Below, piece after piece: positions 1,489 through 12,952 of a stretch of DNA of 48,027 nucleotides. The position numbers and the translations under genes were made by a program. Origin of the DNA: Clostridiales bacterium (GTDB lineage: Bacteria > Bacillota > Clostridia > Lachnospirales > Lachnospiraceae); the NCBI GenBank assembly GCA_012839295.1, contig DUNO01000004.1:1-48027 (forward strand), read 5' to 3'. Each line of letters opens with the position of its first letter. Position 1 is the first letter of the stretch. A model generated the notes under the pieces. The model saw nothing but the letters and a program-made list of their open reading frames with translations, did no database searches and had not been told where the DNA came from.

Positions 1489-2649
1489 ATGGAGAGGAAT
1501 ATTTTAATTGTACATGGCGGAGGCCCCACGGCAGTTATGAATGCTTCTTTATATGGAGCGGTAAAGGAGGCCGGGAAATATGCTGAACTGACCCATATCT
1601 ATGCTGCGAAAAACGGAACCGGAGGTTTCTTAAGAGAGGAATTAATTGAGCTGGAAAACACGCCGGAGGCTGACCTGGCATTATTGCTGCAGACACCGGG
1701 AAGTGCAATCGGAACCTCAAGGGATGAGATAGAGCAGGAAGATTATGAGAAGATGACGGAAATTCTTGTGAAAAAGAAGATTCATTACGTACTTTTTAAC
1801 GGTGGAAACGGAACCATGGATACCTGCGGAAAGCTTTATAAAACCTGCCTGAAAAAGGGCTTGGACATTAAGGTCATGGGCATTCCTAAGACCATAGACA
1901 ATGATATCTCAATTACGGACCACAGCCCGGGCTATGGAAGCGCAGCGCGTTTCCTGGCGCAGAGCGTAAAAGAGGTTTGTGCGGATGTGAAGGGGCTGCC
2001 GATCCATGTGGCTGTGGTGGAGGCACTGGGAAGAAACGCAGGATGGATTACGGCAGCCAGTGCCCTGGCAGGGGAGGATGGAATAGGCCCGGATCTGATC
2101 TATCTGCCGGAGCGGCCCTTCGAGGCGGATCGGTTTATAGAGGATGTCAGGAAGCTGCTGGAAAAGAAAAAGGGAATTGTGGTTGTAGCCAGCGAAGGAC
2201 TGAAGAACGCAAAGGGAGAGCCGGTTGTGGAGCCGGTCTTTCGGACAGAGCGGGCAATTTACTTCGGGGATGTCAGCGCCCATCTTGCCAACCTGGTAAT
2301 CAAAAGGCTTGGTTATAAGGCGAGGAGCGAAAAACCGGGGCTGCTTGGCCGGGCTTCTATTGCTTTGCAAAGCCCGGTAGACCGTGAGGAAGCCAGGTTA
2401 GCCGGAGAAATAGCCTGCAGGGCAGCGATGCAGGGGGAAAGCGGAAAAATGGTTGCCTTCAGGCGTATTTCCACGGAACCATATGTGATGGAGCCGTTTT
2501 TGGCGGATATTGATGAGGTTATGATGCATGAACGGACGATGCCGGACGAATATATCAACAGCGAAGGGAATGGCGTGACGGAAAGCTTCAAGGAATGGTG
2601 CCGGCCTTTAATTGGCGGGGAATTACCGAAAATGGTGTCCTTTAATTAA
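1489..2649 (+). CDS. Phosphofructokinase family (PfkA fold) sugar-phosphate kinase
   Basis: This 386-residue protein has the PfkA-family motifs in order: GGGPT (10-14), PGSAIGTSR (70-78), GGNGT (105-109) and PKTIDND (133-139) with the catalytic aspartate D137. The family phosphorylates fructose 6-phosphate at C1 using ATP or pyrophosphate. The donor motif is mixed. Lys134 is typical of pyrophosphate enzymes, while Gly108 is typical of ATP enzymes rather than the Asp of GGDDS. The usual metal-binding Asp is Asn107. Donor and substrate therefore cannot be called by motif. It opens an operon with an aldolase (33 bases on), a triosephosphate-isomerase paralog and a LarA-like gene, so its product is probably a ketose 1-phosphate or bisphosphate fed to that aldolase. 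A LacI-type palindrome lies upstream. Confidence 0.8.
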   Translation: MERNILIVHGGGPTAVMNASLYGAVKEAGKYAELTHIYAAKNGTGGFLREELIELENTPEADLALLLQTPGSAIGTSRDEIEQEDYEKMTEILVKKKIHYVLFNGGNGTMDTCGKLYKTCLKKGLDIKVMGIPKTIDNDISITDHSPGYGSAARFLAQSVKEVCADVKGLPIHVAVVEALGRNAGWITAASALAGEDGIGPDLIYLPERPFEADRFIEDVRKLLEKKKGIVVVASEGLKNAKGEPVVEPVFRTERAIYFGDVSAHLANLVIKRLGYKARSEKPGLLGRASIALQSPVDREEARLAGEIACRAAMQGESGKMVAFRRISTEPYVMEPFLADIDEVMMHERTMPDEYINSEGNGVTESFKEWCRPLIGGELPKMVSFN

Positions 2650-2682
2650 GAGGATCCGAAAAAGCGAATGGAGGATGAGATT

Positions 2683-3837
2683 ATGTTAGTACCTATGCGG
2701 GCTATTTTAGAAGCGGCAGACCGGTGCGGTTATGCCCAGGGGGCATTTAATGTCAATGCGGTGGCTCAGGCGAAGGCAGTGATTGGTGTGCATGAGATGT
2801 TCCGCAGTCCTGCAATTTTACAGGGGGCCGATCTGGCCAACGGATTTATGGGCGGAAGATGCGATTTTATGAATGCCACCCTTGAGGATAAGAAAAAAGG
2901 CGCAAAAAACATTGCAGATGCTGTGAAGCTGTATGGGGAGAACAGCTCCATTCCAGTTGCGCTCCATTTAGACCATGGAAGAAACCTGGATTCCTGTATA
3001 GCGGCAATTGAAGGAGGCTATACCAGCGTTATGATCGACGGAAGCTCCCTGCCCTTTGATGAAAATGTGGAGCTGACAAGGGAGGTCGTAAAATATGCGC
3101 ATAAGCTCGGGGTGTCCGTTGAAGGCGAGCTTGGAGTTTTAGCAGGGGTAGAGGATCATGTATTCAGTGCGGACAGCACCTATACCAATCCTCTGAGCGC
3201 GGTGGATTTCTTCCGGAAAACGGGAGTGGATGCCCTGGCGATCAGCTATGGGACCATGCATGGTGCCAATAAGGGAAAGAATGCATTGATCCGTAAGGAG
3301 ATTGCCATTGCTGTCAAGGAGTGCCTGCGCCATGAAAGAATCCAGGGCTTCCTGGTAAGCCACGGCTCCTCTACCGTGCCGGGATATATCGTGGATGAAA
3401 TCAATGCCCTTGGCGGCAATCTGACCAACGCGTTCGGTATCGACGTAAACCAGCTGATCGAGGCCTCCCACTGCGGGATCAACAAGATTAACGTTGACAC
3501 GGATATCCGTCTTGCGGTAACCCGTAATATGAAAGAATTGTTTGCAAAGGAGCCATCACTTAGGACCAGTGCCTCAATTGGCGGGATCTATGAGCTGCTG
3601 GAGAAAAACAAGACAGCCTTTGATCCCCGGGTATTTATTACGCCAATTATGGATACTGTAATGTATGGAACTATACCGGATGATGATGTGGCGCGTATCT
3701 GCGGCTGTATTGAAGCCGGTGTCAAGGAAGTTGTGGGCACATTGATTGTACAGTTCGGCAGCTTTGGAAAAGCACCCAAGGTGGAGTGTGTTACTCTGGA
3801 GCAGATGGCCGACAGATACAAAAGAGGAGGAATATAA
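2683..3837 (+). CDS. Class II (metal-dependent) ketose-phosphate aldolase
   Basis: I start at the ATG at 2683 because GGAGGA lies seven bases before it; an in-frame ATG at 2668 has no such site. The 384-residue protein carries the class II aldolase signature: HLDHG (95-99, catalytic Asp97, metal ligand His98), EGELG (147-151), a second metal His193 in TMHGANKG, His227 in SHGSS and NVDTD (280-284). The family cleaves fructose- or tagatose-bisphosphate, or related ketose phosphates, to dihydroxyacetone phosphate plus an aldehyde. It is about 80 residues longer than typical 285-310-residue enzymes, with extra sequence around 55-80 and at the C-terminus. It sits between the kinase and the isomerase paralog, whose ATG immediately follows this stop codon. 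The aldehyde product is unknown. Confidence 0.85.
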   Translation: MLVPMRAILEAADRCGYAQGAFNVNAVAQAKAVIGVHEMFRSPAILQGADLANGFMGGRCDFMNATLEDKKKGAKNIADAVKLYGENSSIPVALHLDHGRNLDSCIAAIEGGYTSVMIDGSSLPFDENVELTREVVKYAHKLGVSVEGELGVLAGVEDHVFSADSTYTNPLSAVDFFRKTGVDALAISYGTMHGANKGKNALIRKEIAIAVKECLRHERIQGFLVSHGSSTVPGYIVDEINALGGNLTNAFGIDVNQLIEASHCGINKINVDTDIRLAVTRNMKELFAKEPSLRTSASIGGIYELLEKNKTAFDPRVFITPIMDTVMYGTIPDDDVARICGCIEAGVKEVVGTLIVQFGSFGKAPKVECVTLEQMADRYKRGGI

Positions 3838-4680
3838 ATGAAGCATATCTATCTGAACTTAAAAAGATTTGATGTTCCCACAGAATTCGGAGGAGTGAAC
3901 CGGATTGCCCCTGTAAAGGACTGGGCATCCTATATCATTACCAATACCCAGGAAGAATTAAAAAAATATGATGCGGATAAAGTGGAGTTTGCCATGTATT
4001 TTCCGGAAGCCCATCTGTTGGAAGCGGCAGCTGCGAAAGCAGCGGACAGCCGGATTAAAATAGGGTGTCAGAGTGTTTACCGGGCAGATGTTTCTGTCGG
4101 CGGCAACTTTGGGGCATTTACCGGGAACAGGCCGGCAGCGGCAATGGTCGGTGCAGGCTGTGAAACCACCATCATAGGTCATTGTGAGGAGAGAAATGAC
4201 AAAGCAGGAATCCTTGCGGAAGCGGGTATTGTTAATCCGGATGCAATTAACAGGATATTAAACCAGGAGATCAGATGTGCCATCACCCGTGGCATGACCG
4301 TGCTTTATTGCATCGGTGAAAAGGCGGAGGAACAGACCCAGTGGATGGAGGTTCTTGGAAAACAGCTGGAGCTTGGATTAAAGGATGTGGATACCTCCAA
4401 GGTTGTGATAGCTTATGAGCCGATTTGGTCAATAGGACCCGGAAAAACTCCTGCGGATAAAGAATATATAACTAAAATAGCACGCTTTGTGAAGGATAAA
4501 ACCGGTGGCATGGATATCGTTTACGGCGGCGGGCTGAAACAGGAGAATGCGGCAATGCTGGCCTCCATTGGGGAGATTGACGGAGGACTGATTGCGCTCA
4601 CCAGATTCCAGGGAGAAATTGGATATTATCCGGAGGAGTATCTGGAAATTATAAGACTTTATATGAATGGAGGAATGTAA
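3838..4680 (+). CDS. Triosephosphate-isomerase paralog with altered phosphate loops
   Basis: This 280-residue TIM barrel keeps the catalytic set: Lys9 (NLK), His115 (GHCEER, canonical GHSERR) and Glu194 (AYEPIWSIGPGKT, the mobile lid). The phosphate-gripping loops differ. The usual YGGS is YGGG (229-232), and the usual VGGAS after IDG is IALTRFQGEIG (252-262). It therefore looks catalytically competent as an aldose-ketose isomerase but probably not for ordinary glyceraldehyde 3-phosphate. TIM paralogs acting on tetrose phosphates, such as erythrulose-phosphate isomerases, are established precedent. The ATG directly follows the aldolase stop and the LarA-like gene starts one base after this stop, so translation is coupled. 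Most likely it handles the aldehyde released by the aldolase, or is a redundant dihydroxyacetone-phosphate isomerase. Confidence 0.8.
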   Translation: MKHIYLNLKRFDVPTEFGGVNRIAPVKDWASYIITNTQEELKKYDADKVEFAMYFPEAHLLEAAAAKAADSRIKIGCQSVYRADVSVGGNFGAFTGNRPAAAMVGAGCETTIIGHCEERNDKAGILAEAGIVNPDAINRILNQEIRCAITRGMTVLYCIGEKAEEQTQWMEVLGKQLELGLKDVDTSKVVIAYEPIWSIGPGKTPADKEYITKIARFVKDKTGGMDIVYGGGLKQENAAMLASIGEIDGGLIALTRFQGEIGYYPEEYLEIIRLYMNGGM

Positions 4681-4681
4681 G

Positions 4682-6178
4682 ATGAAGATTGAATTTGAAT
4701 ATGGACAAGGAACCATGGCAGCAGAGCTGCCGGATCAAGCAGACATTTTTATTCCCGGTGAAACAGTGAAGGACCCGGATTTTATTCCGGAGGATAAATT
4801 AGAAGAAGCATACCTGGAAAGCCTGGCCCATCCCATCGGGATGCCAGCACTGACAGGGCTGGCGCATAAGGGGAGTACGGTCACCTTTATTGTCCCGGAC
4901 CGTGTCAAGGGCGGGGAACAGGCTACCAGCCACAGGAAATTGAGCATCAGATATATTTTAAAGGAGCTTTACACGGCAGGAGTGGAGAAGAAGGATATTC
5001 TTTTCATTATTTCCAACGGACTGCATCCCAGAAGCAAGGAATCCGATGCAAGGGCAATCTTTGGTCCTGAGCTTTTTGACGAATTCTGGCCTACCGGACA
5101 GATCATCAGCCATGACAGCGAGGATCAGGAGCATATGGTCAATCTGGGGACAACCCACCGGGGAGATCCGGTTTATATGAATAAATATGTCTTTGACAGC
5201 GATATTCCCATCCTGATCGGGCACGTACAGGGAAACCCTTACGGCGGATATTCAGGAGGCTACAAGCACAGTGCCACGGGTATCACCAACTGGCAGAGCA
5301 TTGCGAGCCACCATGTGCCCTCCGTTATGCATAGAAAGGACTTTACTCCGGTGAACGGCGCAAGCCTGATGCGCACTAAATTTGATGAAATCAGCATGCA
5401 TATGGAAAAAGAAATGGGGCATCCCTTTTTCTGCTGTGATGCGGTACTGGATACCCAGTCCAGACAAATTGCGATCTTTAGCGGATATGCAAAGGAGATG
5501 CAGCCGGTCAGCTGGAAGACAGCGGATAAGAGAACCTATGTACACTGGGCGGAGAAAAAATATGACATTATGGTATTCGGAATGCCCCAGAAATTCCATT
5601 ACGGGGATGGAATGGGAACAAACCCGATTATGATGATGCAGGCCTTAAGTGCACAGGTGCTGAGATATAAGAGGATCATGAGCGAGAATTGTGTTATTAT
5701 CTGCTCATCTACCTGCAACGGGTATTTCCATGACGAGCTGTGGCCCTACTTAAGGGAGCTGTATGAGCTGTTCCAGCATGACCACATGTATACCCTGCCG
5801 GATATGAACAGGCTGGGTGAATACTTTGCGACAAATGAGGAGTATATCCGCAAATACCGTTTTACCAATGCATTCCATCCCTTCCACGGATTTTCCATGA
5901 TGTCCTGCGGGCATATTGCCGAAATGAATACCAGTGCCATCTATATTGTCGGAGCAGAGGAACCGGGCTATGCCAGGGGAATGGGGCTAAAGACAAGGGA
6001 GACCTTTGAGGAGGCCATAGAGGACGCGAAGAAAAAGTTTGTTGGAAAGAACCCGAATATTTTAGCTCTGCCGATGACGTTTAAAAAATCAGCAGTTCAT
6101 CTTTGCATGAAGAACAAGGAAGAGGATTGCATGGATGCTTATGGACATATGAACCAAGGCTGCGGATGCTGTGGCTGA
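4682..6178 (+). CDS. LarA-like nickel-pincer racemase/epimerase family protein
   Basis: The start at 4682 has GGAGGA seven bases upstream; the in-frame ATG at 4667 overlaps that site. The 498-residue protein matches the lactate racemase LarA fold. It has DR (73-74), His115 in NGLHPR, His181 in IGHV, Lys195 in GGYKHS and His210/211. These align with the catalytic histidines and the lysine that holds the nickel-pincer cofactor, with a few extra residues between His181 and Lys195. Family members racemise or epimerise 2-hydroxy acids (lactate, malate, gluconate and others). The LarB/LarC/LarE cofactor-making genes are not here. The C-terminus ends in an unusual cysteine cluster, GCGCCG. Its place in an aldolase operon suggests the pathway yields a 2-hydroxy acid of both configurations, or that it epimerises a sugar acid. 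Confidence 0.75.
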   Translation: MKIEFEYGQGTMAAELPDQADIFIPGETVKDPDFIPEDKLEEAYLESLAHPIGMPALTGLAHKGSTVTFIVPDRVKGGEQATSHRKLSIRYILKELYTAGVEKKDILFIISNGLHPRSKESDARAIFGPELFDEFWPTGQIISHDSEDQEHMVNLGTTHRGDPVYMNKYVFDSDIPILIGHVQGNPYGGYSGGYKHSATGITNWQSIASHHVPSVMHRKDFTPVNGASLMRTKFDEISMHMEKEMGHPFFCCDAVLDTQSRQIAIFSGYAKEMQPVSWKTADKRTYVHWAEKKYDIMVFGMPQKFHYGDGMGTNPIMMMQALSAQVLRYKRIMSENCVIICSSTCNGYFHDELWPYLRELYELFQHDHMYTLPDMNRLGEYFATNEEYIRKYRFTNAFHPFHGFSMMSCGHIAEMNTSAIYIVGAEEPGYARGMGLKTRETFEEAIEDAKKKFVGKNPNILALPMTFKKSAVHLCMKNKEEDCMDAYGHMNQGCGCCG

Positions 6179-6230
6179 TATCTGATATAAAAGGCGCTGC
6201 CCCTTATTGAAAACCGGAAGACTTTTCAAA

Positions 6231-6280
6231 AAGTATGATAAAAGTTCATACTTATTACCAAAATAAAAACATGGTATTAT
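6231..6280 (+). promoter_or_regulatory. Operator copy 1 and promoter of the binding-protein gene
   Basis: AAGTATGA (6231-6238) and TCATACTT (6246-6253) form an inverted repeat around a 7-base spacer. A -10-like TATTAT starts 22 bases after the repeat (6275-6280). The matching -35 position (6252-6257, TTATTA) is poor and overlaps the repeat edge, which suits an activator-dependent promoter. The entire 23-bp block recurs identically at 7603-7625 with the same spacing to its -10. Confidence 0.7.
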
Positions 6281-6361
6281 TTGTACATGGCCGATGCGGA
6301 ATAAAATTGTATCTGCCTGCAAGTGTTGAGATGACATGTTAATATTAAGGAGGAAAAGGGT

Positions 6362-7441
6362 ATGAGAAAGGTTTTAAGTTTATTTATGGTGCTTGTAATG
6401 ATTGCTGCATTTGCCTCAGGCTGTTCTCAGGGAAATAAATCTGAAGAAACGGGTAAGGGGACACCAGAAGTGACTTCAGCAGGAGAGGACACGGTGGAGG
6501 CATCAACACCAACGGCAGCGCCGGCAGAACTAAAAGTAATAACCGTTGGTTATATGCCAAATTACGCAAGCATGTGTACTGTGGTTGCAGGTATTCAAAT
6601 GAACTACTTTGAAGAGCAGGGCTTGAAGGTAAATCTGGTAGAATTCGCGGACGGCCCGACCATTATAGCAGCCATGGAATCAGGTGCTGTTGATATTGGA
6701 TATATCGGACCTGGAGCACACAAGCTCTGCATTCAGGGAAAAGCTAAGATTTTTGCGTTTTCCCATTATGGAAATGCGGATGCGGTTATTGGCAGTGCAA
6801 GTAAGGGAGTTAGTAAGATTGAAGACTTAAAAGGGAAAAAAATCGCAATGGCTTCCGGCACCACCAGTGAGACAATCTTGAATCTGACACTGGCAAAAGG
6901 GGGATTAACGAAGGAGGATGTAGAGATCCTGGATATGGATGCATCCGCCATAGTTACAGCCATGATTTCAAGAAGCGTAGATGCTTGTGCGACCTGGTCT
7001 CCGAATACAAATTCGATTAAGGAAGAACTGGGAAGTGATGCGGTTACCCTCACAACGAATGTTGATTTTACCGATATATCCCCTTCCATCTGTTCCTGGA
7101 TCGCAAACCCGAATTATATAGATGCAAATGCAGATGATATTTTAAGCTTCACCAAGGCACTCTATAAGGCAATGGATTATAGGGCACAGGAGGCAAATAT
7201 AGATCAGGTGGTAGAGTGGGTAGCTGATCAGGTCGCCCTTGACGTGGAATCCGTAGCCGCCCAAAAGGGAGATGGCGACTGGGAGACAGCAGATGAGCTG
7301 ATAGCAATGATAAACGATGGCTCTTTGGAAAAGGCATTTCAGGCACAGCAGGATAACTTTATAACATCAGGGGATGTAAAAGAAAAGGTTGCTGTAAGTG
7401 ATTATGTAATGTTCCAGAATATGCTTGATGCCGCAAAGTAA
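6362..7441 (+). CDS. NitT/TauT-type ABC transporter substrate-binding lipoprotein
   Basis: This 359-residue protein has a lipoprotein signal (hydrophobic residues 5-18 and a lipobox ending in ASGC, Cys21), then a Ser/Thr/Pro-rich linker to about residue 55. The domain after it has the periplasmic-binding fold of the NMT1/SsuA/TauA group: VGYMPNYAS, FADGPTIIAAMESGAVDIGYIG, then LKGKKIAMASGTTSE. Relatives bind nitrate, taurine, alkanesulfonates or thiamine-precursor pyrimidines. The ligand cannot be named from sequence. It has its own promoter and a terminator-like hairpin before the permease, so it is made separately, as is common for binding proteins. The cognate permease and ATPase follow. 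Its neighbours are sugar-phosphate enzymes, which makes a sulfonated or otherwise anionic sugar ligand worth testing. Confidence 0.85.
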   Translation: MRKVLSLFMVLVMIAAFASGCSQGNKSEETGKGTPEVTSAGEDTVEASTPTAAPAELKVITVGYMPNYASMCTVVAGIQMNYFEEQGLKVNLVEFADGPTIIAAMESGAVDIGYIGPGAHKLCIQGKAKIFAFSHYGNADAVIGSASKGVSKIEDLKGKKIAMASGTTSETILNLTLAKGGLTKEDVEILDMDASAIVTAMISRSVDACATWSPNTNSIKEELGSDAVTLTTNVDFTDISPSICSWIANPNYIDANADDILSFTKALYKAMDYRAQEANIDQVVEWVADQVALDVESVAAQKGDGDWETADELIAMINDGSLEKAFQAQQDNFITSGDVKEKVAVSDYVMFQNMLDAAK

Positions 7442-7500
7442 TATAGAACAGGTAAAATGTAAATACAGATATTACCCCCACACTTATTTGATAAATATAA

Positions 7501-7533
7501 AAAAGAACTATCATCTGCGATAGTTCTTTTTTT
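7501..7533 (+). terminator. Intrinsic terminator after the binding-protein gene
   Basis: AAAAGAACTATC (7501-7512) pairs perfectly with GATAGTTCTTTT (7519-7530) around the loop ATCTGC, and the T-run continues to 7533. This is a textbook terminator. It separates the binding-protein transcript from the permease-ATPase transcript, which has its own copy of the operator. Confidence 0.9.
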
Positions 7534-7602
7534 GAATAATTCATATAATCCCCAGGACCGGCGTTCCTGAATTGTTAATTACAGGCAGCAGATATACAGG
7601 AG

Positions 7603-7652
7603 AAGTATGATAAAAGTTCATACTTAAATCAGATGCCCATATCTGTTACTAT
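7603..7652 (+). promoter_or_regulatory. Operator copy 2 and promoter of the permease-ATPase genes
   Basis: AAGTATGA (7603-7610) and TCATACTT (7618-7625) with the same 7-base spacer as copy 1. A -10-like TACTAT lies at 7647-7652, again starting 22 bases after the repeat. The -35 position (7624-7629, TTAAAT) is weak. Identical operator and geometry at two promoters point to one regulator, plausibly the NarL-type response regulator encoded at 10998. Confidence 0.7.
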
Positions 7653-7697
7653 TGATACATGAAAGTTAGTCAATATTATTTAGAAGGGACTTTAAGT

Positions 7698-8510
7698 ATG
7701 AAAACAAACAATTACACAGCGACTGGTAAAAATAACGGAGGCAGTTTGATTAACGGGATTCCTAAATGGCTATGGTTGCTCCTGTCCTTTGGGGCGGCAA
7801 TGCTCCTCTGGACTTTATTATCCTTCAACCCCAAAACTGCACGGAGTTTTCCGAATGTAATCGTTGTGGGGGAAGCGGTTATCACAATGATTAGCCGCGG
7901 GGTATTTTTTGCGGACATAGCCAGCAGTTTAATTTCCGTCGGCGCAGGCTTTGCCCTCGGCTTTGTCATTGCCCTGCCGGTAGCCATATTGATGGCCTGG
8001 TATAAGCCGGTACGTAACATTATTGAGCCATGGATCCAGTTTATTAGAAATATCCCGCCGCTTGCCTATGTACCCCTGATTGTTATCTCAGCCGGAGTTG
8101 GACGTAAACCACAGATTATCGTAATTACGATTGCGACTTTTCTTACCATGGCAATTACCATCTACCAGGGTGTTGTTAATATTGATACGACTTTGATTAA
8201 AGCTGCCAGGGTTTTGGGAGCAAAGGACAGGGATATCTTTTTAAGGGTAATTGCTCCGGCGTCACTGCCGTTTATCATGACAGCCGTCAGACTTGGTTCA
8301 TCCGTAGCTCTCACTACCCTGATTGCCGCAGAATCCACGGGAGCCTCCGCCGGACTTGGTATGAGGATCCGGGCTCTGAATAACTCCTTTGAGTCGGCAC
8401 CAATGCTGTTATATATCATTATAATAGGCATTATCGGAATGGTCATAGAGAAAATTATTAAGGCACTCGAAAGGAGACTGACAGGATGGCAGGAAAAGAG
8501 AGAAATGTAA
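7698..8510 (+). CDS. NitT/TauT-type ABC transporter permease
   Basis: I start at the ATG at 7698, with AGAAGGGA about eight bases upstream. An in-frame ATG at 7659 lacks a ribosome site and would leave only a few bases after the -10 box. The 270-residue protein has about six membrane helices and the EAA cytoplasmic loop (AARVLGAKDRDIFLRVIAPASLPFI) of the BPD_transp_1 / SsuC-TauC permease family. It forms the membrane channel with the ATPase whose gene overlaps its last 25 bases, so translation is coupled. Substrate class follows the binding protein: nitrate, sulfonate, taurine or pyrimidine-like. Confidence 0.88.
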   Translation: MKTNNYTATGKNNGGSLINGIPKWLWLLLSFGAAMLLWTLLSFNPKTARSFPNVIVVGEAVITMISRGVFFADIASSLISVGAGFALGFVIALPVAILMAWYKPVRNIIEPWIQFIRNIPPLAYVPLIVISAGVGRKPQIIVITIATFLTMAITIYQGVVNIDTTLIKAARVLGAKDRDIFLRVIAPASLPFIMTAVRLGSSVALTTLIAAESTGASAGLGMRIRALNNSFESAPMLLYIIIIGIIGMVIEKIIKALERRLTGWQEKREM

Positions 8511-9277
8511 AGGTAAAGATAGATAATGTTGTTAAGAAATTTAATACCCGTAAGGGTGAAATGACAGCTTTGAATGGAGTGGACCTGGATATCCTGGAGA
8601 ATGAATTTGTAAGTGTGGTTGGCCCATCAGGATGCGGCAAATCGACACTCCTGAATATCATAGCCGGATTATCGGAGGCAACCTCGGGAAAAGTCTACTG
8701 TGACGGGCATGAAGTAAAGGGTACCGGAACGGAAAGAGGAGTGGTGTTCCAGCAATATGCCCTATTTCCTTGGCTTACGGTCAAAAAGAATGTAGAATTC
8801 GGACTTGGGATTAAGGGCATAAATAAGGAGGAAGCTTCGGAAATTGCGATGAAATATATTAGGATGGTGGATCTGGAGGACTTCGCCAATCATTATCCCA
8901 AGGAACTGTCAGGAGGGATGAAGCAGAGGGTGGCCATAGCAAGGGCATATGCGGTGAACCCTTCCGTATTGCTGATGGATGAGCCCTTCGGAGCGCTGGA
9001 TGCACAGACAAGGACCCAGCTGCAGGAGGAGCTGCTGCATACGTGGGAAAAGGAGAAGAAAACCTGTTTCTTTATCACGCATGATGTGGATGAAGCAATC
9101 ATTTTGGCACAGAGAGTGGTAATCATGAGTGCCAGACCCGGCCGCATTAAGGAAATTGTGGATGTGGATATTCCGTATCCGAGAAACCAGGAGACAAAGC
9201 TGACGCAGGAATATATAGAAATCAAGAATCACATATGGAAACAGGTATATCAAGAATACCTGGAGGTCAGAAAATAA
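8486..9277 (+). CDS. NitT/TauT-type ABC transporter ATPase
   Basis: This 263-residue ABC ATPase has every catalytic motif: Walker A GPSGCGKST (about 47-55), Q-loop FQQY, signature LSGGMKQR, Walker B VLLMDEP followed by the D-loop (ALDA), and the H-loop THD. It belongs to the SsuB/TauB/NrtD branch that energises nitrate, sulfonate and taurine importers. It overlaps the permease gene by 25 bases. Together with the genes at 6362 and 7698 it makes a complete importer, unlike the three sugar importers further right, which lack ATPase genes. Confidence 0.9.
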   Translation: MAGKERNVKVKIDNVVKKFNTRKGEMTALNGVDLDILENEFVSVVGPSGCGKSTLLNIIAGLSEATSGKVYCDGHEVKGTGTERGVVFQQYALFPWLTVKKNVEFGLGIKGINKEEASEIAMKYIRMVDLEDFANHYPKELSGGMKQRVAIARAYAVNPSVLLMDEPFGALDAQTRTQLQEELLHTWEKEKKTCFFITHDVDEAIILAQRVVIMSARPGRIKEIVDVDIPYPRNQETKLTQEYIEIKNHIWKQVYQEYLEVRK

Positions 9278-9417
9278 CCGGCGCTGCCGTAAAGAAGCAG
9301 CTTCCGTAAATAGGCCGTAAAAGCTTGATACAGCCAGATAAATAGACTATCATAGATCTTACTTATGAGAAGCTTTGAATATGATGAAGAAAGCTTTATG
9401 GAAAAGGAGAGTAAGAA

Positions 9418-10914
9418 ATGCTTATCGTTTTTTTAATATTTCTTGTTGTTGTTTCTGTCTTATTGCTGCTCAGCAGCAGGAACAAGGAAACCTTTTATCT
9501 GGCTGGAATGTGCCTAAGCCTGGCTGTCATGCTGACAGGGATTTTGATCTTTATAGCAAAAAAAGGCGGCATATCGAAGGAGCTGAGCCAATTCTTCTTT
9601 TTATCCATATCAAATAAAACAAAGATACAGTATATGCTCATTCTTGTGGATCAACTGGGATATATTATTGCAATAGGAAGATATCTTTTCCCGGTATTCC
9701 TCATGCTGACGGCATTGAATTACAGCATGCTTCCCGTGATACGAAATAACCATAAGAAGAGCTGGCTGACCTTCATCATACCGGTCACTACCTTAATTGT
9801 ATATTATCCTAAGGTATTCCGGATGCTGGTCTCCTATGGGAGCAAAGCCCAAACCATAATCATATCCATCACGAATTATTGGATCGTGGCATACGTTGCA
9901 ATTGCTGTTCTTTTGCTGTTGATTGAAACCTACTCCATCAGCATGTGGTATTTTCGGAAACGGATGATTCTTATTGATATATTCATTGTTTCCATCGCCG
10001 GTTTATATCTGCTTTATGTCGGACAGGATCCGGCGCAGGTATATCAGTTTTATGCGGATGACTACATCTGGAAGCAGGGGATTTATTATATGCGTGCTAC
10101 CCTTTCCATTCCGGCGTATATCGTGATTTTGATTGCCAATCTGATTTGTGCGGTTGTGGGTATCGCAAGTGTAACAATCTATACCCAGGTGAATTTTGAA
10201 GCCAACAGGGAGGAGGTAATCAGACAGCGCAAATTTAATACCATTAGCGCAGGAACCTCCGTTTTCATCCATAGCATAAAAAATCAATTGCTGGCAAACC
10301 GGGTTATATATAAACGGATCGGAAGCATCTATCAGGAGGACAAGCCGGATATGGATAAGGTAAAGGAGTATACGGATGCCCTGCAAATAAATAATGAATT
10401 TATGCTGTCAAGGATGAATGACTTGTACCGCTTTGTAAAAACGAATTCCGTCCATTTGATTCCGGTTTCCATAAAAGAGCTGCTTGAAAGCGCGCGGGAA
10501 ATGTATCTGAGAAAATATCCCGAAGGTCAGCTGGAGGTGCAGTATTCACAGGGGACTATGGTATTAGCTGATATCAACCATTTATGTGAGGCTATCTATA
10601 ATCTGATGATAAATGCACAGGAGGCAATCAATGACGCAAACAAAGGAAATGAAGGGGGAATTATTCTATGCTGTTACAATGTCCGGTTATATACGGTGAT
10701 TGAAGTGGTGGATAACGGTATCGGAATGAGTAAAAGTACCCTGAAAAAAATATATGATCCGTTTTATTCCAGCAAAAACTCTAATTTCAACTGGGGAATG
10801 GGGTTACATTATGTAAGGGAAATTGTTAAGGAGCATTTTGGAACCCTTAGATGTGAAAGTAAAATTGGGGAAGGAAGCCGTTTTTACGTACTACTTCCTA
10901 AATATAAGGAATAA
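9418..10914 (+). CDS. Multi-pass membrane sensor histidine kinase
   Basis: This 498-residue protein begins at an ATG behind GGAGAG. Residues 1-260 hold about seven or eight hydrophobic helices with no large extracellular domain, suggesting it senses a membrane or transporter state or a small ligand. The kinase core follows: phosphoacceptor His285 in FIHSIKNQLL, N-box NAQEA, G1 box DNGIGM, F box DPFYSSK and G2 box GMGLHYV. Its likely partner, a NarL-type regulator, starts 83 bases downstream, and a glucose-6-phosphate-isomerase paralog follows that. The arrangement ties the system to the sugar-phosphate genes and the ABC importer to its left. Confidence 0.88.
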   Translation: MLIVFLIFLVVVSVLLLLSSRNKETFYLAGMCLSLAVMLTGILIFIAKKGGISKELSQFFFLSISNKTKIQYMLILVDQLGYIIAIGRYLFPVFLMLTALNYSMLPVIRNNHKKSWLTFIIPVTTLIVYYPKVFRMLVSYGSKAQTIIISITNYWIVAYVAIAVLLLLIETYSISMWYFRKRMILIDIFIVSIAGLYLLYVGQDPAQVYQFYADDYIWKQGIYYMRATLSIPAYIVILIANLICAVVGIASVTIYTQVNFEANREEVIRQRKFNTISAGTSVFIHSIKNQLLANRVIYKRIGSIYQEDKPDMDKVKEYTDALQINNEFMLSRMNDLYRFVKTNSVHLIPVSIKELLESAREMYLRKYPEGQLEVQYSQGTMVLADINHLCEAIYNLMINAQEAINDANKGNEGGIILCCYNVRLYTVIEVVDNGIGMSKSTLKKIYDPFYSSKNSNFNWGMGLHYVREIVKEHFGTLRCESKIGEGSRFYVLLPKYKE

Positions 10915-10997
10915 AGAGGGATAAATTACTTGAGGCTATTGATGAAATGATACAAAGTATGTGCAGTGTCCCGGGCAGGACAGGAGATGGGGGGAAT

Positions 10998-11672
10998 ATG
11001 AAAAAGCATATTAAAGTAATGATTGCAGATGATTTCCAATTGCTAATAGAGGATATGGGAGATGTCATTAACAGCCAGCCCGACATGGAGGTGGTAGGTA
11101 CGGCCTGCTCAGGAACTGACATTGTTAAATTGGCGGGTGAAATGGATTACGATATCATTCTGATGGATATAGAGATGGAAAACATTATTGCAGGGATTAC
11201 TGCAACTGAGGCAATACGTGATATGAACAGGGAGGCTAAGATAATTTTCCTGACTGCCCACGAGACCAATGATATTATTTTATCTGCCATGGGAACGGGA
11301 GCAATTGACTATATTGTAAAAGGAAGCCCGGATGAGGTGATTTTGGAGCATATCCGGTGCGCTTATAAGGGAAATCCTATTATGAGCGTAAAGATCCATG
11401 AAATAATCATGCAGGAATATAAGAGACTCCAACAATCGGAACAAAGCCTGATTTATTTTATTAATAACATATCAACTCTTACTAATACGGAACGTATTCT
11501 GATACGTATGCTTCTTGATAATAAAAAAGTAGTAGAAATCGCGAAGGAGAGAAGTGTTGAAATTGTAACGATAAAAACACAGATTAACGGACTGCTGAAA
11601 AAGTTCGGTTGTTCCCGCAGTAAGGATATTGTAAATATAATAAGGAATTTGAATCTGACGCATTTATTTTGA
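10998..11672 (+). CDS. NarL/LuxR-type response regulator
   Basis: I use the ATG at 10998, just behind GGGGGGAAT; the longer frame from 10947 has no ribosome site and adds non-family sequence. The 224-residue protein has a receiver domain with acidic pair D11-D12, phosphoacceptor Asp57 (ILMDIE) and Lys near 109 (IVKGS). The C-terminal helix-turn-helix is LuxR/NarL-like (LTNTERILIRMLLDNKKVVEIAKE, then VKTQI-type recognition helix) at about 155-215. NarL-type regulators bind inverted repeats as dimers, so the AAGTATGA-N7-TCATACTT sites upstream of the transporter genes are good candidate targets. The isomerase gene starts 26 bases after the stop. Confidence 0.88.
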   Translation: MKKHIKVMIADDFQLLIEDMGDVINSQPDMEVVGTACSGTDIVKLAGEMDYDIILMDIEMENIIAGITATEAIRDMNREAKIIFLTAHETNDIILSAMGTGAIDYIVKGSPDEVILEHIRCAYKGNPIMSVKIHEIIMQEYKRLQQSEQSLIYFINNISTLTNTERILIRMLLDNKKVVEIAKERSVEIVTIKTQINGLLKKFGCSRSKDIVNIIRNLNLTHLF

Positions 11673-11698
11673 TGTTAAGATAGAATAGGGGGAAGGTT

Positions 11699-12952
11699 AT
11701 GTTCAATTTGGTGATACATAATGATGAAGAAATCAAATCAGAGCTGGATAGAATGTTATGGGAGAATAAAGAAGTTGTGAAGGAAGCCCAGAGGGGTGAA
11801 GAAGTTTTTGCCGACAACCAGGGCTGGCTGGACACGGAAGAATGGGCAGACAATAAAAGCATTTATAGGCTGGAAATGCTTTCAAAGGAGATCAGGGAAA
11901 ATGCAGATGTTTTTGTACTAATCGGCGTGGGCGGATCAAACAATGGAGCCAGGTCTGTAATCAGCGCGTTGCAGAAGGAAGGAACTCCGGAGATCATATA
12001 TGCAGGAAATACGCTTTCTCCTAACGCCTTAAATAAAATACTGAAACGGCTGGAGGGTAAATCAGTTTATTTAAATGCAATTGCAAAAAATTTTGAAACC
12101 TTGGAGCCAGGTGCTTCGTTCCGTGTTTTTCGCAAATACATGTATGAAGCCTACGGCGACGCTGCTGCAAAACGGATTATTGTCACAGGCACAAAGGGAA
12201 GTTCCTTGGAAAGGCTGTGTGAAGAGAAGGGGTATCCCTTTTTAGATTTTCCTTGGAATATTGGCGGCTGTTATACGGCCATTACCAATGTGGGGCTTTT
12301 TCCGATGGCGGTAGCAGGAGTTAATATCAGAGAGCTGGTGGACGGAGCACATAATATGCAGAAGAGGCTGCATATACCGGAGCTTGAAAATAATATAGCA
12401 TTCCAGTATGCCTGCTTAAGAAATCTTTTCTACCAGAAAGGTTATAGAGTTGAAATGCTGGCAAGCTTTGAACCGCAGCTCCGTTGGTTTTATAAATGGT
12501 GGATCCAGCTATTTGCAGAAAGTGAAGGAAAGGATAATAAGGGTGTTTTCCCTGTAGCGAGCGAGTTTTCGGAGGATTTACATTCTGTTGGACAGTTCAT
12601 ACAGGATGGGTCACCAATTATGTTTGAAACCTTTTTGGAGGTTTTGGAACAGCAGGATTCCCTTATCGTAGAGCAGGATGCTTTGGAGGATGGTTTTGAT
12701 TATCTCGAGGGCAAGGATTTCCGGGATATCAATAAAATTGCTTATAAAGCGACGGTAATGGCGCATAGCAGGAAACTGCCATGTATTACGATTGAAATTG
12801 GTTCCTTGGACGAATATCATTTCGGACAGATGTTCTATTTTTTTCAGTTTGCCTGCTATTTATCCTGTAAGATGATGGATGTTAATGCATTTGATCAGCC
12901 GGGAGTGGAGGCCTATAAAGAATGGATGTTTGATTCATTAGGAAAGCGGTAA
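11699..12952 (+). CDS. Glucose-6-phosphate-isomerase paralog lacking the phosphate loop
   Basis: This 417-residue protein aligns along its length with bacterial phosphoglucose isomerase: IGVGGSNNGA (75-84), ESEGKDNKG (274-282), SEDLHSVGQ with His295, and QPGVEAYK near the end with Lys407. Two otherwise conserved sites are changed. The phosphate-binding loop ISKSGTTTEP reads IAKNFETLEP (128-137), removing the Ser/Thr ligands. GGRYS/GGRFS reads GGCYT (189-193), so the catalytic-site arginine is Cys191. I infer an isomerase for a sugar without an ordinary 6-phosphate, rather than a housekeeping enzyme. It is the last gene of the histidine kinase-regulator operon. Regulation together with the importer is likely. 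Downstream, TTCTAAA (12990-12996) and TTTAGAA (13011-13017) may form a weak terminator. Confidence 0.82.
   Translation: MFNLVIHNDEEIKSELDRMLWENKEVVKEAQRGEEVFADNQGWLDTEEWADNKSIYRLEMLSKEIRENADVFVLIGVGGSNNGARSVISALQKEGTPEIIYAGNTLSPNALNKILKRLEGKSVYLNAIAKNFETLEPGASFRVFRKYMYEAYGDAAAKRIIVTGTKGSSLERLCEEKGYPFLDFPWNIGGCYTAITNVGLFPMAVAGVNIRELVDGAHNMQKRLHIPELENNIAFQYACLRNLFYQKGYRVEMLASFEPQLRWFYKWWIQLFAESEGKDNKGVFPVASEFSEDLHSVGQFIQDGSPIMFETFLEVLEQQDSLIVEQDALEDGFDYLEGKDFRDINKIAYKATVMAHSRKLPCITIEIGSLDEYHFGQMFYFFQFACYLSCKMMDVNAFDQPGVEAYKEWMFDSLGKR

Follow-up and report, generated by a model that had tools for sequence, protein, structure and literature searches.

Which sugar is handled by a second, divergent set of glycolytic enzymes that is encoded together with a LarA-like protein and a sulfonate-type importer? 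The question is raised by positions 1489-12952 of a 48,027-nucleotide stretch of DNA from a Clostridiales bacterium of the Lachnospiraceae (assembly GCA_012839295.1, contig DUNO01000004.1, positions 1 to 48,027), and the whole of this stretch is called the window below. An initial annotation had proposed a dedicated route for a non-standard sugar, and this proposal is supported, the gene set being conserved in relatives together with the importer class. On the sequence evidence, it is very likely that the cluster encodes an Embden-Meyerhof-type route dedicated to sugars whose C6 carries an anion other than phosphate, written here as X. A sulfur oxyanion is the likely identity of X. That X is an O-sulfate, processed by the whole scheme proposed below, is an evenly balanced matter in our judgement, and the release of the sulfur anion by the LarA-like protein is a doubtful part of it.

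The ten genes of the cluster were established by a listing of open reading frames (ORFs) and by Pfam and NCBIfam profile searches. All of them lie on the + strand, and the glycolytic paralogs, LarA-like gene, importer and two-component system that had been annotated at 1489-12952 were all confirmed. The cluster starts with a PfkA-family kinase (PFK', 1489-2649; PF00365, 4e-56; NCBIfam PRK14072 above its cut-off), a class II aldolase (FBA', 2668-3837; PF01116, 1e-70), a triosephosphate-isomerase-like protein (TIM', 3838-4680; PF00121, 2e-35) and a LarA-like protein of the single-histidine nickel-pincer subfamily (4667-6178; PF09861, 4e-36; alignment with PDB 9q3j). These are followed by a substrate-binding protein of the SsuA/TauA class (6362-7441; TIGR01728, 3e-42, below the cut-off), the importer permease (7659-8510; PF00528) and ATPase (8486-9277; PF00005), a sensor histidine kinase (9418-10914; PF02518), a response regulator (10947-11672; PF00072) and a glucose-6-phosphate-isomerase-like protein (PGI', 11699-12952; PF00342, 1e-20). 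Read along the strand, the cluster runs from the kinase through aldolase, triose isomerase, LarA, importer and two-component system to the hexose isomerase, so that the order read at first, with the hexose isomerase leading the kinase, aldolase and triose isomerase, had to be corrected. The window starts at contig base 1, and DNA further upstream lies outside its view.

The enzymes of the cluster are additional copies beside canonical ones, as had been claimed. A canonical TPI on another contig of the same genome scores 317 bits, compared with 123 for the window copy. The genome also has a canonical PGI and a second divergent PGI besides the PGI' of the window, and its total of matches is 5 for the PFK family and 14 for class II aldolases. 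In a TIM tree of 45 rows (22 TIM' and 23 others), in which some rows carried a long-branch warning, the two sets were split by one branch with support of 100/100. A survey of the genus covered 13 genomes including that of the window, and TIM' was found in two of them (G000, the genome of the window, and G012). Therefore, the trait is accessory in the genus.

Conservation of the module was followed in relatives. A scan of genome contigs gave 146 relatives of the LarA protein, and the best 80 were kept with the window as 81 loci, a sample biased to close relatives. Genes were counted by tblastn with identity and length thresholds. Only 47 of the 81 loci, the window counted, span at least 18 kb, and absences are partly contig ends. 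Counting based on ORFs overlooked genes under antisense ORFs, such as the TIM' of locus L052; the binding proteins were 41 by that count and 37 by tblastn, the lower figure being due to the tblastn thresholds. TIM' was present in 71 of the 81 loci, and in 69 of these it shares the strand of LarA at a distance of no more than 600 bases. PFK' and FBA' were each present in 57. All four genes, PFK', FBA', TIM' and LarA, occurred together in 46 of the 81 loci; this conserved co-occurrence, which the initial annotation had called for, indicates that the clustering is not due to chance. The SsuA-type binding protein was found in 37 loci, a TauE-family protein in 27, always on the strand of LarA, the histidine kinase and the response regulator in 20 each, the window counted, and GH3 in 15. 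TauE was counted from two clusters, and in each of them one member was confirmed by PF01925.

Two kinds of entry enzymes accompany this core. NagA'-like proteins were found in 38 loci, NagB'-like proteins in 35 and PGI' in 35. The NagA' member tested scored above the cut-off of TIGR00221, and the NagB' member tested scored below the nagB cut-off. Among the 38 loci with NagA'/NagB', the binding protein is present in 28, TauE in 22 and GH3 in none; among the 21 loci with PGI' only, GH3 is present in 15, TauE in three and the binding protein in two (the window and L021). Both entry types occurred in 14 loci and neither in 22. The entries are exchanged around nearly identical cores. L052 and L053 belong to one genome (G033, Gemmiger gallinarum DSM 109015), and their FBA', TIM', LarA and PFK' are 99-100% identical; the core of L052 stands behind an SsuA-type importer, a two-component system, NagB' and NagA', and that of L053 stands with sulfatase genes, GH3 and PGI'. 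The neighbours are also swapped around FBA', TIM' and LarA (98-99% identity) of L059 and L063, both of which have PGI'. In a quick LarA tree with 58 rows of the two entry types, 14 changes were needed. These swaps and the tree changes indicate that one core takes the products of both entries. Close NagA'/NagB' were not found in the genome of the window, where the best matches, on contig C18, were 36% and 29% identical. Therefore, the entry in this strain would proceed through PGI'.

The residues of the enzymes show what has been kept and what has been replaced. The PGI' set has 35 rows (33 of the 36 ORF matches, after filtering on identity and length, and two found by searching genomes) and was compared with 14 canonical rows. 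The phosphate loop SKSGTT reads AKNFET, with S to A, S to N and G to F in 35/35 rows and T to E in 34/35. On the other hand, K130, T134, E274, H295 and K407 are identical in all 49 rows, and 61 residues besides E274, H295 and K407 are unchanged across both sets. For TIM', 59 of 67 rows, those of 270-305 amino acids, were aligned with 20 canonical rows (E. coli gene numbering). The catalytic N9, K11, H95 and E167 are kept in 59/59, and the phosphate site has changed by S212G (59/59), G233A (58/59), G234L (59/59) and S236R (59/59). By the classical definition of TIM, the catalytic Asn, Lys, His and Glu are present in TIM' and the glycine-rich phosphate site is not. The same pattern was obtained with the other entry enzymes. 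NagA' (37 rows, two canonical references) has R227H in 37/37 and keeps E131, H195, H216, H251 and D273. NagB' (31 of 32 rows, two references) has T41V, K208H and G205R in 31/31 with positions 43-44 gapped, and keeps D72, H143 and E148.

PFK' (55 of 59 rows) keeps D127, D129, E222, R243 and R252 in 55/55, and FBA' (47 of 62 rows) keeps D102, H103, H198, H232 and R281 in 47/47; R281 is present in two of eight paralogs. In TIM' and in NagB', a position at which no canonical row has arginine is invariably arginine. Thus, phosphate ligands at the C6 end are replaced in four families, PGI', TIM', NagA' and NagB'. Taken together, the lost ligands, the arginines kept in PFK' and FBA' and the new arginines of TIM' and NagB' indicate a different anion rather than a neutral group, and this anion seems to be still held at C6 by the PFK' and FBA' arginines. 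PFK' has H at position 162 instead of R in 55/55 rows, and the long-type paralogs of the own genome are likewise without Arg there. Position 104 is G in 52/55 rows, which by a rule of thumb goes with ATP as the donor. The phosphoryl donor of PFK' is accordingly suggested to be ATP by G104 and diphosphate by the NCBIfam name.

The LarA-like protein gives the cluster its unusual end. Its residues 6-499 align with PDB 9q3j, the best PDB match, with 1043 bits. It has the residues of the single-histidine subfamily (the catalytic His kept, the second His replaced by Asn, and the cofactor-link Lys), and these signatures hold among the 81 LarA sequences, with H120 in 80/81 and N190, K200, K81 and D78 each in 81/81. 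The residue roles were matched to the residues named in PMC12611868, and the number given there for the Ni-ligand His maps to no His in the alignment. That paper (2025), in its accessible text, describes the structures of two LarA homologs with a single catalytic histidine, from Blautia wexlerae and Streptococcus plurextorum (PDB 9q3j, 9q2u and 9q3k), and leaves the substrate and the pathway open. Near such LarA genes it notes genes of glycolysis, one for a glucosamine-6-phosphate isomerase and possible ATP-binding cassette (ABC) transporters for sugars, and it found no lactate racemisation. A lactate or sulfolactate racemase was thus rejected for LarA: the second catalytic His is Asn at window residue 190 in 81/81 sequences, and racemisation of sulfolactate, the 2-hydroxy acid that the initial annotation had offered as fitting LarA, is unlikely. 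The closest relative, 94% identical, comes from a metagenome-assembled genome named Herbinix sp. LarC and LarB adjoin each other on contig C9 of the own genome, and in the relative L051 LarA is followed on its own strand by LarE, LarB and LarC.

The loci without TIM' bear on the substrate of LarA. There are ten of them among the 81, and all ten genomes were searched, together with five others whose LarA loci do contain TIM'. For four of the ten loci (L020, L023, L064 and L065), TIM' lies elsewhere in the genome; for the other six (L029, L057, L058, L071, L073 and L074), a search of the genome at E 1e-20 gave none. Five of these six, L057, L058, L071, L073 and L074, have a gene for a glycerol-3-phosphate-oxidase-like protein next to an importer ATPase, with 80-100% identity to the L057 copy. 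One internal TAA was reported for two of the five matches, though ORFs of 480-486 amino acids are open there. Each of the five genomes also has one or more distant oxidase-like copies (35-44%) elsewhere. Nothing beyond a 50% copy and a fragment was found in the genome of L065, where TIM' is present. The oxidase-like gene is followed in four of the five by genes for a pyridine-nucleotide-type flavoprotein and a DUF1667-like protein (Pfam checked for L071 only). Oxidation of glycerol-X would give dihydroxyacetone-X, which is also what TIM' would form from glyceraldehyde-3-X. Therefore, dihydroxyacetone-X is our best guess for the LarA substrate.

The following route is proposed. The importer would take up an aldose-6-X, and PGI' would convert it to the ketose-6-X as the entry step in this strain. 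PFK' would then phosphorylate the ketose-6-X at carbon 1, and FBA' would cleave the product to dihydroxyacetone phosphate (DHAP), which enters glycolysis, and glyceraldehyde-3-X. The latter would be isomerised to dihydroxyacetone-X by TIM'. The single-histidine LarA would act on this C3-X compound, perhaps with release of sulfate and formation of methylglyoxal or lactate. In relatives, a TauE-type exporter may remove the sulfur anion or the product, and in many of them NagA'/NagB' would feed the same core from N-acetylglucosamine-6-X. The computation shows the paralogy, the conserved clustering, the catalytic residues retained and the phosphate-site residues changed, the transporter families and the exchange of entries on one core. 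X as a sulfur oxyanion, sulfate over sulfonate, each of the substrates and the LarA reaction are what we infer. In its most specific form, the proposal is that Clostridia degrade N-acetylglucosamine (GlcNAc)-6-sulfate and hexose-6-sulfates without prior desulfation, that the sulfate ester mimics phosphate for a full set of rebuilt NagA, NagB, PGI, PFK, aldolase and TIM enzymes, and that LarA finishes dihydroxyacetone sulfate by internal hydride transfer and sulfate release. This full form is tentative and rather unlikely.

The evidence for sulfur comes from transporters and neighbours. The binding protein reached 145 bits against TIGR01728, whose cut-off is 163.5, so that a related class is indicated and membership in the family is not reached; TauA and SsuA are among its nearest solved relatives. 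Sulfatases (PF00884) were found in four of the 81 loci (L053, L056, L059 and L062), each of which also has PGI' and GH3, and three more lie near the second PGI', again with GH3, on contig C35 of the own genome. The first reading of the DNA had seen no exporter. This stands for the cluster of the window; in relatives the TauE-family exporter is common (27/81). A core fed by both NagA'/NagB' and PGI' makes GlcNAc-6-sulfate and hexose-6-sulfate the simplest natural input pair known to us.

Several other explanations have to be set beside a sulfate ester. Redundant glycolytic isozymes that act on ordinary phosphorylated sugars, with LarA as an incidental neighbour, would account for the family-level matches, and NCBIfam calls PFK' a diphosphate-dependent fructose-6-phosphate kinase, above the cut-off. 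However, the phosphate-site residues are uniformly replaced in four enzyme families, TIM' and canonical TPI are split with full support, and the set is conserved with a special importer class. The residue changes and the canonical copies in the own genome led us to rule ordinary isozymes out as very improbable. A neutral or carboxylate group at C6, as in a 6-deoxy or uronate-type sugar, would explain the loss of phosphate ligands such as Arg227 of NagA and Lys208 of NagB, and the LarA contexts of L047 and L083 are not sulfur-like. On the other hand, the invariant Arg243/Arg252 of PFK' and Arg281 of FBA' and the new arginines of TIM' and NagB' suit an anion, and sulfur is suggested by the importers of SsuA type, the exporters of TauE family and the sulfatases, so that an X without sulfur is improbable. 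With X as a sulfonate, the cluster would encode a further kind of sulfoglycolysis, in which sulfoquinovose or a similar 6-deoxy-6-sulfo sugar enters through a PGI-type isomerase and LarA acts on sulfolactaldehyde or its ketose isomer. The importer of SsuA/TauA type and the exporters of TauE family agree with this, and the TIM'-less variant with the oxidase-like gene suits dihydroxypropanesulfonate (DHPS). Known sulfoquinovosidases belong to GH31, and GH31 proteins were found in three of the 81 loci (L018, L021 and L058; one-seed search, Pfam checked for L018 and L058), but this family is broad. The Sulfo-EMP2 pathway of Firmicutes shares the kinase and aldolase families PF00365 and PF01116, according to the accessible text of PMC9594981. 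Sulfatases, however, adjoin PGI' in some loci, and no sulfolactaldehyde reductase or dehydrogenase is present among the ten cluster genes, as the initial annotation had stated. FBA' matches 8q57 and 8q58, which we take to be SqiA, with 7e-33 and 1e-30, compared with 1e-50 for the Giardia FBPA. Moreover, a sulfonate would require GlcNAc-6-sulfonate in the 38 loci with NagA'/NagB', and we know of no source of this compound. The NagA'/NagB' entry fits GlcNAc-6-sulfate better than a sulfonated glucose. The sulfosugar first suggested is thus partly supported: an anionic sulfur group fits the importer, the TauE exporters and some neighbouring sulfatases, and sulfoquinovose stays a live but less likely rival, which we consider unlikely.

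Several points weigh against the sulfate ester scheme as well. The residue roles are those of the classical structures, carried over by alignment, NagA and NagB were each compared with two canonical sequences only, and the PFK' changes D103N and R162H, at sites that are altered also in the long-type paralogs of the own genome, are little informative. Neither an exporter (TauE) nor a sulfatase was found in the cluster of the window. Apart from the second PGI' locus, sulfatases occur in only four of the 81 loci, and the own genome has 23 sulfatase-family matches, so that their nearness to PGI' on C35 may be accidental. For the glycerol-X variant, a sulfonate (DHPS) is as good a fit as a sulfate, or a better one. 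The surroundings of LarA in L047 and L083 resemble pathways for pentoses, ascorbate or nucleosides and offer no simple fit. Finally, the covalent 316.5 Da ligand on the published LarA, described in the accessible text of PMC12611868, is unexplained by the scheme. As for a common sugar phosphate as this ligand, the masses were compared by hand and none fitted.

Some loci extend the range of contexts. In L047 (7366-12329), LarA and TIM' share their strand with a set of ascorbate-6-phosphate-lactonase-like, AraD-like and IolO-like genes, and in L083 (9093-20453) they share it with RpiB; further genes of L083 resemble nucleosidases and an ABC transporter. These two loci would be other sugar entries to the LarA/TIM' pair. 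In L183 (G015:C42:352000-371999), FBA' was not found in the stretch, and a 217-residue protein, whose start presumably resembles a transaldolase/FSA-type aldolase, adjoins LarA. On contig C35 of the own genome (C35:1-36000; L102 and L103), the second divergent PGI is accompanied by GH3, an MFS symporter, ROK-like and LacI-like regulators, a FucI-like isomerase, a 284-residue class II aldolase and the three sulfatases. C35 is perhaps a second sulfated-sugar locus. The 23 sulfatase matches of this genome (G000), which by impression we take to be many for a Lachnospiraceae-like genome, suggest a sulfated-glycan lifestyle.

The remainder of the window is of a different kind. Positions 13211-47842, adjoining the module, are a glycan-degradation region with sugar-type solute-binding proteins, a histidine kinase, AraC-type regulators, a GH78 rhamnosidase, GH43, GH2, GH3, a chemotaxis receptor and a Big_2 protein. 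On the other side, an energy-coupling factor (ECF) transporter S component (168-701, + strand; PF12822), with homologs in a few other loci, pairs with a small kinase-like protein (718-1335, + strand; no Pfam match, weak PRK07667 match). The pair recurs near the LarA module in L025, L054, L079 and L183, and in L008 and L012 a single longer ORF seemingly holds both proteins fused. Its function is possibly to import and phosphorylate a precursor of a cofactor, perhaps of the nickel-pincer nucleotide.

If the proposed sulfate route is true, LarA would carry out a nickel-pincer reaction other than racemisation or epimerisation, and a structurally solved nickel enzyme subfamily would gain a pathway. 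It would also explain a possible use of sulfated sugars, for example from mucin or glycosaminoglycans, by Lachnospiraceae and relatives, and would bear on the amount of free sulfur anion that reaches sulfide-forming bacteria. In the literature searched, which mostly left subscription papers outside its coverage, no description of the module beyond PMC12611868 was found, and none was found of glyceraldehyde 3-sulfate, fructose 6-sulfate and similar intermediates. Phosphofructokinase, aldolase and triose are not mentioned in PMC11770544 and PMC7583248, and metabolism and transporter terms were not found in PMC11659886.

Three known systems can be compared with the module. The window LarA belongs to the same single-histidine subfamily as the published proteins, with invariant signature residues. 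In the accessible text of PMC12611868, the neighbourhood description names no NagA, sulfonate-type importer, TauE or sulfatase, and the pathway and the substrate class are proposed here. Sulfo-EMP2 of Firmicutes, as far as the accessible text of PMC9594981 and PMC12890257 goes, uses SqvD, a PF00365 kinase (SqiK) and a PF01116 aldolase (SqiA) and ends with oxidation or reduction of sulfolactaldehyde. It is like the window in having an isomerase together with these two families, its aldolase splitting a 6-sulfo ketose 1-phosphate into DHAP and a C3 sulfur compound. However, its isomerase is the FucI-like SqvD, whereas that of the window cluster is of the PF00342 PGI family and a FucI-like gene lies only near the second PGI' on C35. 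In the place of its sulfolactaldehyde reductase or dehydrogenase, the window has TIM' and LarA, and many relatives of the module, unlike Sulfo-EMP2, have a NagA/NagB-like entry. The catabolism of GlcNAc-6-phosphate by NagA and NagB, continued by glycolysis, uses the same families in the same chemical order as the module; what sets the module apart from it is the replacement of the phosphate-binding residues in NagA', NagB', PGI' and TIM'.

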